26,357 bases of DNA from a virus. The translations under genes were made by a program, and so were the position numbers. The stretch covers positions 1 through 26,357 of IMG/VR virus record IMGVR_UViG_3300024356_000037; one strand, 5' to 3'. The notes beneath the pieces were generated by a model. That model ran no database searches and was not told the origin of the DNA. It worked only from the letters and a program-made list of their open reading frames with translations. Shown one piece after another: positions 7,404 to 23,986 of this stretch; position 1 is the stretch's first letter, and each line of letters starts with the position of its first letter.

Positions 7404-7431
7404 TTGACATTGGTCAAACATCTGCTATGAT
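7404..7431 (+). promoter_or_regulatory. Sigma70-like promoter with TTGAC-N4-GTCAA operator-like dyad
   Basis: TTGACA (7404-7409), 16-bp spacer, TATGAT (7426-7431). The -35 hexamer is part of the dyad TTGACATTGGTCAA (7404-7417). It drives the structured leader and gene at 7670, and the dyad could also affect the divergent HNH gene. Confidence 0.8.
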
Positions 7432-7440
7432 CCGTTCTCC

Positions 7441-7669
7441 GTGGCGATGCGGTGACCCCGCCACAGAGAGAAACGGCGACCCTCCTGCGAGAACGCTGCC
7501 TAGCACCGATGGATACGAGCCTTGCGGCGACTTGCCCATTGGATGACAGCCCAGATTGAGGTGTTCAGGCACTCTCAAACACCGCCTCCCTGACGAGGGC
7601 AGTACATCTGGGTCACGCGACCCAAGGCTTCCAGAGGACGCTCTGGGAGCCGACCTTTTGGAGACGAGC
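7441..7669 (+). promoter_or_regulatory. Long structured 5' leader, possible attenuator
   Basis: About 230 untranslated bases separate the promoter from the ATG at 7670. Hairpins visible: GTGGCG/CGCCAC (7441-7446/7459-7464), GGTGTT/AACACC (7560-7565/7578-7583), CCCT/AGGG (7588-7591/7596-7599), TGGGTC/GACCCA (7609-7614/7619-7624) and an 11-bp stem (7626-7636/7641-7651, GACG loop). The last is followed by GACCTTTT and then the ribosome site, like a weak attenuator. CGGCGAC occurs twice (near 7475 and 7525). I do not recognise a riboswitch class. Confidence 0.5.
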
Positions 7670-8068
7670 ATGATTGTCGGAAGCATCAAGACCGTTTCGC
7701 ATCATCGGAACGGCATCAGCGGCGAACCCTTCTACTGCGTGGCGTTCGCGTTCCAGCACGAGGATCAGAACTGGGACATGATCGCGACACTTGATCCACA
7801 GAATCCAAGCCTCACGCGGGTCTTGTGCGTCACGAGCCTCCATGACGGATGGCGCGGCGACACGATGTTCGATTCGATCATCGGCGCGGTCGCAAAGGCG
7901 GTCAAGGAGGGGTTGATTGACGAAGAGTCTCGCATTTGGGCGTGTGCGCTCCTGTCGAACTTCAGGAAGGAATCCAGACGCGATTCCGAGCATCTCGCTT
8001 CGGACGGGTTCCCGATGGAGAAGTTCGACGGTCTCACTCCAGCCGATCATGGCACGGACACGCCGTGA
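7670..8068 (+). CDS. Hypothetical protein, 132 aa
   Basis: Not recognised. The ATG at 7670 follows the shared leader GGAGACGAGC. The product begins MIVGSIKTVSHHRNGISGEP and has a beta-rich N-terminal half (FYCVAFAFQHEDQNWDMIATL), an Asp/Gly-rich middle and a helical segment (FDSIIGAVAKAVKEGLIDEE). It is the only protein expressed from the promoter at 7404 before the next promoter at 8073, and it has an unusually long structured leader, so its level may be controlled. There is no signal peptide or membrane segment. Confidence 0.75.
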   Translation: MIVGSIKTVSHHRNGISGEPFYCVAFAFQHEDQNWDMIATLDPQNPSLTRVLCVTSLHDGWRGDTMFDSIIGAVAKAVKEGLIDEESRIWACALLSNFRKESRRDSEHLASDGFPMEKFDGLTPADHGTDTP

Positions 8069-8072
8069 CCGC

Positions 8073-8100
8073 TTGACAGAAGCGCGGATGTGTCTATAGT
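8073..8100 (+). promoter_or_regulatory. Sigma70-like promoter of small RNA
   Basis: TTGACA (8073-8078), 16-bp spacer, TATAGT (8095-8100). This is one of the best matches in the window. The predicted start is near 8107. It lies only five bases after the stop codon of the upstream gene. Confidence 0.8.
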
Positions 8101-8106
8101 CGCTTC

Positions 8107-8245
8107 CGAGCCTTGCGGTGGACGACTCCGCATAAGCCAAGCCAGTCGAAAGGCTGTCTTGGCGATTAGGGTGCAACACCACCCGCATTCATCTTTTCCC
8201 CCATGCGCTGCCGCCCCAGAGCCGATCAGGGGCGGTGGCGTTTTT
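8107..8245 (+). ncRNA. Putative small non-coding RNA, about 139 nt
   Basis: The segment lies between a strong promoter (8073-8100) and a strong intrinsic terminator (8206-8245) and has no reading frame with a ribosome site. Inside are TGCGG/CCGCA (8114-8118/8128-8132), a stem GCCAAGCC with GGCT-bulge-TGGC (from 8137 to about 8163), and an unpaired C-rich stretch (CATCTTTTCCCCC) just before the terminator. This is the usual layout of a phage or bacterial sRNA. It could instead be an attenuated leader for the holin-like gene at 8396. It does not match tRNA, tmRNA or 6S by eye. Confidence 0.6.
8206..8245 (+). terminator. Strong intrinsic terminator
   Basis: A 12-bp stem (8206-8217 with 8229-8240, two G-T pairs, core CCGCCCC/GGGGCGG) with an 11-base loop is followed directly by TTTTT (8241-8245). 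It is the clearest rho-independent terminator in the window. Confidence 0.88.
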
Positions 8246-8274
8246 GCGGTTAGGGTATTCTTCGACCCGCAACA

Positions 8275-8290
8275 GGCGGATCACTCCGCC
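8275..8290 (+). repeat. Perfect hairpin GGCGGA-TCAC-TCCGCC
   Basis: A six-bp perfect stem with a four-base loop, between the terminator and the structured RNA at 8302. Its role is unknown. A weak TATTCT at 8256 has no matching -35, so I do not call a promoter there. Confidence 0.4.
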
Positions 8291-8301
8291 CTCGCCTCAC
8301 T

Positions 8302-8383
8302 CCGTGCGCTTGGTTGGGCGGACTCTCTGACGAGATCGCTTGGCGTGTGCCACAGCGTGCGTCCGTACCAGCCAAGCGCACGG
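8302..8383 (+). ncRNA. Structured RNA: 16-bp stem closing a multi-branch junction, upstream of the holin-like gene
   Basis: CCGTGCGCTTGGTTGG (8302-8317) pairs with CCAGCCAAGCGCACGG (8368-8383) over 16 bp with one G-T. Inside are CGGAC/GTCCG, a short hairpin TCTC-TGAC-GAGA, and CGCTTGGC-GTGT-GCCA with AGCG (one bulge). The whole 82 bases fold into a compact three-way shape. It ends 12 bases before the ATG at 8396, leaving the GGGAG ribosome site free. It contains CTGACGA as in hammerhead ribozymes but lacks the GAAA partner, so I reject that class. Probably a leader element or a processed RNA. Confidence 0.5.
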
Positions 8384-8395
8384 TTGGGAGCAGTC

Positions 8396-8608
8396 ATGGA
8401 AGACAACGGTCTCACGAAGGGCGCGAAGACGAGCGAGTTCTGGGTTGCAGTCGTTCCTGTTGCCATTGCCATGCTTGAGAACTTCAAGCAGGACACGGAG
8501 TCGTCAGAGCGGATGATGACGCTAGCGTTTGCCATCGGAGGTCTCTATCTCGTGAGCAGGACTGCGCTCAAGATGATGGAGATGTGGACGGCGACGAAGC
8601 GCGGTTGA
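8396..8608 (+). CDS. Holin-like small membrane protein
   Basis: 70 residues with two hydrophobic helices: SEFWVAVVPVAIAML (about 13-27) and MMTLAFAIGGLYLVSRTAL (about 40-58), joined by a charged loop (ENFKQDTESSE) and ending in KRG. Size, two transmembrane segments and a charged C-terminus fit class II holins, which open the inner membrane for the endolysin. The lysozyme-like gene is 8 kb away, so the usual holin-endolysin cassette is split. The ATG at 8396 has GGGAG upstream. The 3' end overlaps the convergent sigma-like gene by 41 bases. Confidence 0.6.
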   Translation: MEDNGLTKGAKTSEFWVAVVPVAIAMLENFKQDTESSERMMTLAFAIGGLYLVSRTALKMMEMWTATKRG

Positions 8609-9206
8609 CTGGAGTATGCCGCTCGTACTTGGTTCTCTTGCGGTACTCCTGCAAGTAGAGAATCCTGTCGTGTATGTGCTTGGCAAGTGATTCCGACATC
8701 TTCTCCCCCAAGAACTCGTGCAACTCCTTGGCGCACTCAAACTTCAACTGACTGACGCGCGATGCCGAAACTCCGAGCATCAGGGATATCTGTCGGAACG
8801 ATTTGCCTTGCAGCCTCATCACCGCGATGCACTTCGCCTCTAGCGACAGCCTGTCCGAAGACAAGATCATCTGGATGAACGCCTCGACGCTCTTGGTCTC
8901 CGACCGCGAAGGCTGCACCGCGTCCATCACAGCCGAGCCTTGCATATTGATCGACCGCTGACCAATCCGCCTGCTTCCCACCTCGTTGCGGATCGCATCA
9001 AAGACCACGAATCGCGCCTTGTTGTTCGTGTACTGAAATGACGACCCGTTTCGCAGCAACGCCAGCATCGTCTCCTGCGCGATGTCGTCCGAATCCATCC
9101 CGTTGATGGAGCGACAGCCAGACTTGCGTAGCCATCGACTGGCAACGCGCTTGGCGATTCTCCATGCCCGCCTTGGGTCTTCGCCTGCCGAATCGGTGCG
9201 TTCCAT
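8568..9206 (-). CDS. Phage-encoded sigma-70-family-like factor
   Basis: 212 residues. The N-terminal half resembles sigma region 2: MDSDDIAQETMLALLRN (37-53) followed by NKARFVVFDAIRNEVGSRRI (62-81), which matches the helix contacting core polymerase and the -10 element. The C-terminal half has a region-4 helix-turn-helix, EAKCIAVMRLQGKSFRQISL continuing MLGVSASRVSQL (123-154). Spacing is like the short FliA/SigF-type or ECF factors. It is the last gene of a five-gene minus operon. The ATG at 9206 has GGGAGG four bases upstream; a TTG four codons earlier is less likely. It may switch host RNA polymerase to late phage genes, since no late genes lie in this window. Confidence 0.78.
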   Translation of the reverse strand: MERTDSAGEDPRRAWRIAKRVASRWLRKSGCRSINGMDSDDIAQETMLALLRNGSSFQYTNNKARFVVFDAIRNEVGSRRIGQRSINMQGSAVMDAVQPSRSETKSVEAFIQMILSSDRLSLEAKCIAVMRLQGKSFRQISLMLGVSASRVSQLKFECAKELHEFLGEKMSESLAKHIHDRILYLQEYRKRTKYERHTPVNRASSPSTSPSS

Positions 9207-9275
9207 TACGCCTCCCAAGGCATAATCACCGCTTTCCGATATCAGCCATTTTTTGAATCCGCGCTTTCTCGCAGA

Positions 9276-10787: not shown

Positions 10788-10815
10788 TTGACAAGCCTTG
10801 ACGATGTAGTACCAT
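10788..10815 (+). promoter_or_regulatory. Sigma70-like promoter with TTGAC-N5-TTGAC direct repeat
   Basis: TTGACA (10788-10793), 16-bp spacer, TACCAT (10810-10815). A second TTGAC follows ten bases after the first (10798-10802), on the same face of the helix, as at 23936 and at the minus promoter near 22000. Confidence 0.7.
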
Positions 10816-10821
10816 CAGGGA

Positions 10822-10838
10822 GTCAGCAAGGGGCTGAC
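10822..10838 (+). promoter_or_regulatory. 5'-terminal hairpin GTCAGC-AAGGG-GCTGAC
   Basis: A six-bp perfect stem starting exactly at the predicted +1 of the promoter at 10788. The same element recurs at 15359 and 23970. Confidence 0.7.
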
Positions 10839-14938: not shown

Positions 14939-15328
14939 ATGACGAGCAAGCAAGACGCACGCACCAAGACCCTGAAGATCGCCAAGATTCGCGGTCGAGT
15001 CATTCCGACCCTCGCGAACCTCAACGGAACGGTCAGTCCCGAGGACATGACCTACTACAGCAAGTCGATGCCGTCCAAGGTGTTGCACGCGAAGTGGTAT
15101 CAGCAGATCGGGGTGTACGACTTTGAGTGCGAACTCCTCCTGATCCGCGATGGCAATGTCATTGCCCGCATCGAACTCAACGACGAGGGGTGCTGGAACA
15201 AGTACACCGCCAGCGTGAGGGGCGGCGGCTTCAATAAGTTCAGCCGCCAGAGCGCGGCTATCGCGTGGGTCTACAGGGAGTTGGAGAATCAGATGGAAAA
15301 TCGTCAGATTCCCTCCCAAGTGGCTTGA
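14939..15328 (+). CDS. Hypothetical protein, 129 aa
   Basis: Not recognised. ATG 14939 follows AAGGAGACAGCC. A basic N-terminus (TSKQDARTKTLKIAKIRGR) is followed by a beta-rich centre (YDFECELLLIRDGNVIARIE) and a helical end (SAAIAWVYRELENQM). The basic start could bind nucleic acid. It has a promoter of its own and the 5' hairpin, and the next promoter lies over its 3' end. Confidence 0.78.
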   Translation: MTSKQDARTKTLKIAKIRGRVIPTLANLNGTVSPEDMTYYSKSMPSKVLHAKWYQQIGVYDFECELLLIRDGNVIARIELNDEGCWNKYTASVRGGGFNKFSRQSAAIAWVYRELENQMENRQIPSQVA

Positions 15329-15352
15329 CACGAGTCAATAGTGTGGTATCAT
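15325..15352 (+). promoter_or_regulatory. Sigma70-like promoter with TTGAC-N4-GTCAA dyad
   Basis: TTGACA (15325-15330), 16-bp spacer, TATCAT (15347-15352). The dyad TTGACACGAGTCAA spans 15325-15338. The -35 overlaps the stop codon of the upstream gene. Confidence 0.8.
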
Positions 15353-15358
15353 CATCCT

Positions 15359-15376
15359 GTCAGCAAAGGGGCTGAC
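15359..15376 (+). promoter_or_regulatory. 5'-terminal hairpin GTCAGC-AAAGGG-GCTGAC
   Basis: A six-bp perfect stem beginning exactly at the predicted +1 of the promoter at 15325, with a one-base longer loop than at 10822 and 23970. Confidence 0.7.
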
Positions 15377-19696: not shown

Positions 19697-19974
19697 GCGA
19701 TGAGGAAGACGACCAGATGTTCCTGTTCGATGGGCTGCACGACGACCCGAACGACTGGAGGAAGCATTGGGTCGGGATGCCAGAACTCTCGCAGGAAGAC
19801 CTGTCGTCGTTCAGGAAGATCGTCGTCCACTTCCGAAGCGAAGAGGATGTAGCCGCGTTCGCGGCACTTATCGGGCAGCAGATCACGCCGAAGCAGCCGA
19901 GCCTCTGGTTCCCAGAGATGGCGCACAGGATCGCATCGGACAAGCGTTGGGTCGGCACGAAGGATGAACCCTAG
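19693..19974 (+). CDS. Conserved phage protein paired with glycosyltransferase, 93 aa
   Basis: Contains DWRKHWVGMPELSQEDLSSF, KIVVHFRSEEDVAAFAALIG and QQITPKQPSLWFPE. This series (W-x-G-M-P-E, H-F-x-x-E-E-D-x-x-x-F-A, I-T-x-K-x-x-S-x-W-(F/Y)-P) is one I know from phage genomes beside glycosyltransferases of the next gene's type. Its role is unknown; it could be a partner protein of the DNA-modifying system. It overlaps the following start by 11 bases. Confidence 0.72.
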   Translation: MSDEEDDQMFLFDGLHDDPNDWRKHWVGMPELSQEDLSSFRKIVVHFRSEEDVAAFAALIGQQITPKQPSLWFPEMAHRIASDKRWVGTKDEP

Positions 19975-20842
19975 ATACCCCGTCTACATCATCTCCAAGG
20001 GCAGGGCTGATCGGCGGCTCACCATCCGCACGCTCGACGCGCTTGCAGTCCCCTACACCCTTGTTGTCGAGCCGCAGGAGTTCGATGACTACGCACGCCA
20101 TGTCGATCCGCGCCGAATCGTCGTCACGCCATTCAGCAATCTGGGGCATGGCAGCATCCCCGCGCGTAACTTCGTCTGGGAGCATTCGATCTCCAGAGGG
20201 GCGAGGCGGCATTGGATTCTGGACGACAACATTGCGGCGTTCTGCCGCCTGAACCACAACCTACAGGTCAAGGTCACGGACGGGACGGTGTTCAGGGTGA
20301 TGGAGGACTTCGTGGACAGGTACGCGAATGTCGCCATAGCCGGTCCCCAGTACGACCACTTCGCCAAGTCCAAGTGCGTCCACCCCGCCTTCTGCGCCAA
20401 CACCCGCATCTACTCCTGCCTCCTGATCGACAACTCCCTCCCCCACCGCTGGCGCGGTCGCTACAACGAGGACACCGATCTCTGCCTCCGCGTCCTCAAG
20501 GACGGTCTATGCACCGTCCTGTTCTACGCCTTCACGCAGGAGAAGGCGACAACCATGACCATGCGCGGCGGCAACACCGACGAACTCTACAAGGACGATG
20601 GTCGGCTCCTGATGGCGCAATCCCTCGCGGATCAGCACCCCGATGTCGCCCGCGTCTCTTGGAAGTTCAACCGCTGGCAGCACCATGTCGATTACCGCCC
20701 GTTCCGCAGGAACGCCCTCAAGTACCGCGATGGCTACATCCCGCCAAGCGGCATTGACGAGTACGGCATGAGGCTCGTCTCCGTCGAGGAGCCAAGCCTG
20801 TTCAGCGAACAAGCCCCGTGCGATGCACGAGGCTTGCTCTAG
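19964..20842 (+). CDS. TET-associated/GREB1-type glycosyltransferase (TAGT-like)
   Basis: 292 residues. N-terminal YIISKGRADRRLTIRTLDAL and VPYTLVVEPQEFDDY (29-43), then ARNFVWEHS and HWILDDNI (83-90, with D87-D88 in the place of a GT-A metal motif), and RGRYNEDTDLCLRVLKDG (164-181). These blocks match the GT-A-like family first described next to TET/JBP oxygenases in phages and in animal GREB1. The members are predicted to glycosylate modified bases in DNA. No TET/JBP gene lies in this window; a modified pyrimidine would have to come from elsewhere in the genome. The family assignment is good; the substrate is inference. Confidence 0.8.
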   Translation: MNPRYPVYIISKGRADRRLTIRTLDALAVPYTLVVEPQEFDDYARHVDPRRIVVTPFSNLGHGSIPARNFVWEHSISRGARRHWILDDNIAAFCRLNHNLQVKVTDGTVFRVMEDFVDRYANVAIAGPQYDHFAKSKCVHPAFCANTRIYSCLLIDNSLPHRWRGRYNEDTDLCLRVLKDGLCTVLFYAFTQEKATTMTMRGGNTDELYKDDGRLLMAQSLADQHPDVARVSWKFNRWQHHVDYRPFRRNALKYRDGYIPPSGIDEYGMRLVSVEEPSLFSEQAPCDARGLL

Positions 20843-23935: not shown

Positions 23936-23963
23936 TTGACACGCCTTGACGATGGTGTAGACT
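23936..23963 (+). promoter_or_regulatory. Sigma70-like promoter with TTGAC-N5-TTGAC direct repeat
   Basis: TTGACA (23936-23941), 16-bp spacer, TAGACT (23958-23963). A second TTGAC lies at 23946-23950. Confidence 0.75.
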
Positions 23964-23969
23964 ACAGGG

Positions 23970-23986
23970 GTCAGCAAGGGGCTGAC
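23970..23986 (+). promoter_or_regulatory. 5'-terminal hairpin GTCAGC-AAGGG-GCTGAC
   Basis: A six-bp perfect stem beginning at the predicted +1; identical to the element at 10822. Confidence 0.7.

Follow-up and report, generated by a model that had tools for sequence, protein, structure and literature searches.

Here we describe a promoter, a predicted structured RNA of about 139 nt and an intrinsic terminator that lie ahead of a 70-aa open reading frame (ORF) in a phage sequence. The feature is real and well formed, and of a familiar type: a terminated phage leader or small RNA. Our favoured reading, which we give about an even chance of being right, is a terminated leader RNA that gates the 70-aa ORF by conditional or partial termination. 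What the sequence shows directly is the signals and their spacing, the conservation, the constrained ORF and the lack of another promoter for that ORF.

The window, that is, the whole stretch of DNA analysed, is an IMG/VR virus record in full (26,357 bases). Its gene content is that of phage replication and DNA modification (helicase, methyltransferase, primase-like, RusA, HNH and ThyX). A genome of the tailed-phage type is indicated by a 54-kb record that matches the first 5.2 kb of the window at 99.96% identity and carries genes for portal and major head proteins. DNA searches against a named-phage collection and against plasmids gave no match. As to the host, a weak match to a GC-type dockerin-like protein hints at a planctomycete-like origin and is a lead only; when the helicase alignment and this dockerin-like protein were used to search genome contigs, no relative and no host came to light. 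The gene at 19964–20842 (+) encodes a TET-associated (TAGT) family glycosyltransferase, a hint of modified phage DNA bases. The element was found in only two other contigs: one is 99.95% identical, and the other (L003) has 98.0% identity across 5,957 bases. Additional neighbouring genes used as queries returned nothing beyond the three contigs already known. The part of the element up to the terminator is made up as follows.

8073–8100, + strand: promoter TTGACA-16-TATAGT (P8073), 11/12 consensus match; −35 box at 8073–8078, −10 box at 8095–8100
8107–8245, + strand: predicted structured short RNA, about 139 nt from a presumed start; fold z = −4.2; no changes relative to L003
8114–8132, + strand: 5′ hairpin UGCGG/CCGCA, from the fold
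8136–8163, + strand: hairpin GCCAAG-C-CAGUC-GAAA-GGCUG-U-CUUGGC, from the fold
8162–8186, + strand: hairpin motif GCGRTTAGGGT-N8-ACCCGC, copy 1; the similarity of the two copies is reached in 5% of shuffles
8188–8203, + strand: C-rich stretch, predicted unpaired (partition function)
8205–8245, + strand: intrinsic terminator with a 13-bp stem, an 11-nt loop and T5

The near-consensus promoter noted earlier is borne out, at a level far above shuffled sequence: four promoter-like sites in the window, both strands counted, match at 11/12 or better, against a mean of 0.03 per shuffle. These sites are members of a larger group, about ten TTGACA-16-TAnnnT sites that lie ahead of genes. Both boxes of P8073 are unchanged in L003, where differences are confined to spacer positions 8092–8093. 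Across the roughly 91 kb scanned (the window plus seven loci from its kin, L009, L013–L017 and L046, with locus overlaps discounted), 8073–8245 is the sole promoter with an intrinsic terminator 40–400 nt downstream.

Elsewhere in the window, the −35 boxes at 7404, 10788, 15325, 22004(−), 23844(−) and 23936 are embedded in palindromes (TTGAC-n-GTCAA) or direct repeats (TTGAC-n-TTGAC), which suggests an operator for a phage regulator. A conserved hairpin, GTCAGCA-n-GGCTGAC, lies within about 10 nt downstream of three promoters, at the transcript start (10788–10838, 15325–15376 and 23936–23986), and a fourth copy is present in a distant relative (L047); it is a 5′ mRNA element common to this phage group.

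The terminator stem contains 13 perfect pairs, G-U included (10 G-C), with arms at 8205–8217 and 8229–8241 and a T-run at 8241–8245. A strict search of the window returned only two strong intrinsic terminators, this one and another just after the RusA gene, compared with 0.07 per shuffle. A simple scan that allows only loops of 3–8 nt missed it because its loop is 11 nt long. A 94% complement of 17 nt between 8217–8233 and 232–248 was dismissed as one among many chance inverted repeats. The predicted RNA runs from near 8107 to 8245 and is laid out as three hairpins, the C-rich unpaired stretch and the terminator. The corresponding 140-nt stretch folds at −62.9 kcal/mol (z = −4.2), and z is −2.6 once the terminator is removed. 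The earlier note had proposed a transcript of about 139 bases with internal stems and a C-rich single-stranded stretch, all of which agrees with these predictions; its terminator also stands, with a stem of 13 bp in place of the 12 bp given there. Searches of Rfam at gathering and permissive thresholds found nothing credible for the element. As a separate observation, the RNA shares a 12-mer, CGAGCCTTGCGG, with the leader (7432–7669) of the upstream promoter P7404; the local alignment score of these two leaders is reached by 11/300 shuffles, so the similarity is weak.

With its own promoter and terminator, a structured body, a C-rich unpaired stretch and a sequence unchanged in the near relative, the RNA could instead be a stand-alone, trans-acting small RNA whose partners would be mRNAs of the phage or the host, through base pairing, or an RNA-binding protein of the host, the terminator being a mere 3′ end. 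Phage small RNAs already known include several of about 139 nt (PMC12197685). We regard this as possible but on the unlikely side. A search for targets of the C-rich stretch, as suggested earlier, gave no pairing with phage sequences that exceeded chance: over some 49 start regions of the phage, the best energy was matched by 90% of shuffled queries. The best non-self duplex within the window was likewise near the shuffled range. A further difficulty is that the constrained ORF downstream would have no promoter. The region concerned contains the following.

8246–8270, + strand: hairpin motif GCGRTTAGGGT-N8-ACCCGC, copy 2, directly 3′ of the terminator
8275–8290, + strand: hairpin GGCGGATCACTCCGCC
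8302–8382, + strand: long branched hairpin upstream of the ribosome-binding site of the 70-aa ORF
8396–8608, + strand: 70-aa ORF, GGGAG before ATG; two weakly hydrophobic stretches; no family match
8568–9218, − strand: sigma-70-family-like protein, convergent, in one accessory block with the RNA and the 70-aa ORF

The leader at 8246–8395 is more strongly folded (z = −5.6) than the short RNA. All four changes that separate the 70-aa ORF of the window from that of L003 are synonymous and none is nonsynonymous, a pattern that indicates purifying selection. The best promoter match between the terminator and the ATG reaches only 7/12. Without a promoter of its own, the ORF would have to be transcribed by read-through of the terminator, and a gated leader is thereby the most parsimonious interpretation. 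The ORF’s frame is open back to 8090, throughout the short RNA (about 4% by chance); the only in-frame starts within the RNA, TTG at 8159 and GTG at 8171, are without a clear ribosome-binding site. The description of this gene as holin-like in the earlier note rests on its size and the two weakly hydrophobic stretches and finds no family match. We also considered a type III toxin–antitoxin (ToxIN-like) system and rejected it: there is only one spaced repeat pair (P ~0.05), and the ORF matches no toxin or defence model.

Conservation was assessed on one relative of 98% identity, L003, whose alignment contains 121 changes, none of them in 8094–8391, against 24 in 753 adjoining positions on both flanks. 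The chance of such a run is P ~8e-5 if changes fall at the flank rate and 0.002 if they fall at the mean rate, and the short RNA accounts for 139 of the unchanged positions (0/139 nt). Three gaps this long among 121 changes arise in 0.04% of random placements. The other long change-free gaps lie partly within genes. Because changes are unevenly spread over the alignment, recombination or mosaic ancestry could account for part of the conservation. Between close relatives, the sigma-like gene has many nonsynonymous changes (13/27).

The kin locus L014 retains the 132-aa gene upstream of the element (68% protein identity) and has neither P8073 nor the RNA, nor the 70-aa ORF, nor the sigma-like gene. 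In their place, the upstream gene is followed by about 170 bases, mostly unrelated, that include a 37-aa ORF on the opposite strand. The joint absence of RNA, ORF and sigma-like gene indicates that the element is an accessory block, either gained here or lost in L014. A palindromic 13-mer in the 8275–8290 hairpin, GGCGGATCACTCC, recurs at L014:4940-4954, between neighbouring genes and with no surrounding sequence in common, and may mark the edge of an exchanged block. The 7432–7669 leader of the upstream gene is long and change-free in the near relative; L014 has about 60 nt instead.

The upstream gene also raises the possibility that the terminator is an ordinary 3′ end. It would then close the transcript of the 132-aa gene (7670–8068) from P7404, with P8073 weak or silent and no regulatory short RNA. 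The gene’s stop codon lies 4 nt before the −35 box, P7404 transcription runs straight into the terminator, and the window’s only other strong terminator also follows a gene, RusA, directly. However, the terminator also cuts P8073 transcripts, so that a short RNA arises unless P8073 is silent, and the homologue of the upstream gene in L014 has no such terminator. We consider this reading unlikely. P7404 is also a counterpoint to gating, in that the 70-aa ORF could be reached from it too.

The short transcript unit claimed in the earlier note thus stands, on the sequence statistics and the absence of change in L003. Its stand-alone character is less likely, because the RNA, the post-terminator leader and the conserved 70-aa ORF form one accessory block and that ORF is without a promoter. 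On the gated-leader reading, P8073 transcription would end by default at the intrinsic terminator (8241–8245), giving the structured RNA of about 139 nt. Read-through, either by a minority of polymerases or by polymerases that a factor of the phage or host has modified at some point during infection, would carry transcription past the terminator into a second structured leader and on into the membrane-protein-like ORF of 70 aa. Transcription itself, the RNA ends, read-through and any controlling factor are predictions from sequence.

How termination might be relieved was considered in several ways. The best alternative antiterminator fold was equalled in strength by 49% of shuffles, so no RNA-only switch is visible; an RNA-only attenuator or riboswitch fails on this point and on the lack of an Rfam match. 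The attenuator of a holin-like gene that had been offered as an alternative therefore survives in part: control of that gene fits better, as conditional or partial termination, and the alternative antiterminator fold stays at shuffle level. No Q-like antitermination protein was present among the phage proteins scanned, which cover part of the phage. After three tested mechanisms stayed at shuffle level, factor-dependent or simply partial termination remains. In one candidate form of it, which we think very improbable, a protein controlling read-through would bind the bulged hairpins GCGRUUAGGGU-N8-ACCCGC that flank the terminator (8162–8186 and 8246–8270), as part of a new RNA-directed (nut-like) antitermination system in a phage whose host is poorly studied. 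The pair is only a hint, because equal repeats occur in 5% of shuffles. A pattern scan of viral contigs for the motif gave six single matches besides the two close relatives, none with the double motif; we take the six to be chance, because their surroundings resemble coding sequence (methyltransferase-like in three).

If transcribed as predicted, the element would be a phage leader RNA from a lineage for which the collection of named phages searched contained no relatives. It would also be a simple case in which to test conditional termination upstream of a small gene for a membrane-protein-like product. The element alone does not indicate a new mechanism.

In the isrK locus, the order is promoter, short RNA, terminator, structured leader and small ORF (PMC4825925). 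The parts here are ordered in the same way: one promoter would give a short terminated RNA and a possible read-through mRNA, followed by a small ORF. A dual RNA of this kind, whose short isoform would act in trans to open the structured leader on the read-through isoform, is also favoured by the strong leader structure. However, pairing between the short RNA and the leader equals shuffles (53% as good), so that, unlike isrK, trans pairing is not above chance, and no AntQ or AnrP homologue was identified. We rate this reading very improbable.

The lambda pR′–6S RNA–tR′ unit comprises a strong promoter, a short non-coding leader, an intrinsic terminator and a small lysis-type gene reached only by read-through, under Q antitermination. 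The element here likewise has its terminator between the promoter and a downstream small ORF with no other promoter. Unlike in lambda, no Q-like gene or Q site was identified and no sequence relation is seen; and unlike in the lambda late operon, one small ORF lies beyond the terminator, followed by a convergent gene. Lambda Q and tR′ are discussed together with the Pseudomonas AlpA–alpBCDE antitermination unit, in which an intrinsic terminator, tB, lies between the promoter and the first, holin-like gene, alpB (PMC7969949). No AlpA-like protein or AlpA site was identified here, unlike in that unit, but the order is the same: a promoter, then an intrinsic terminator, then the first gene, here the 70-aa ORF with its putative holin nature.
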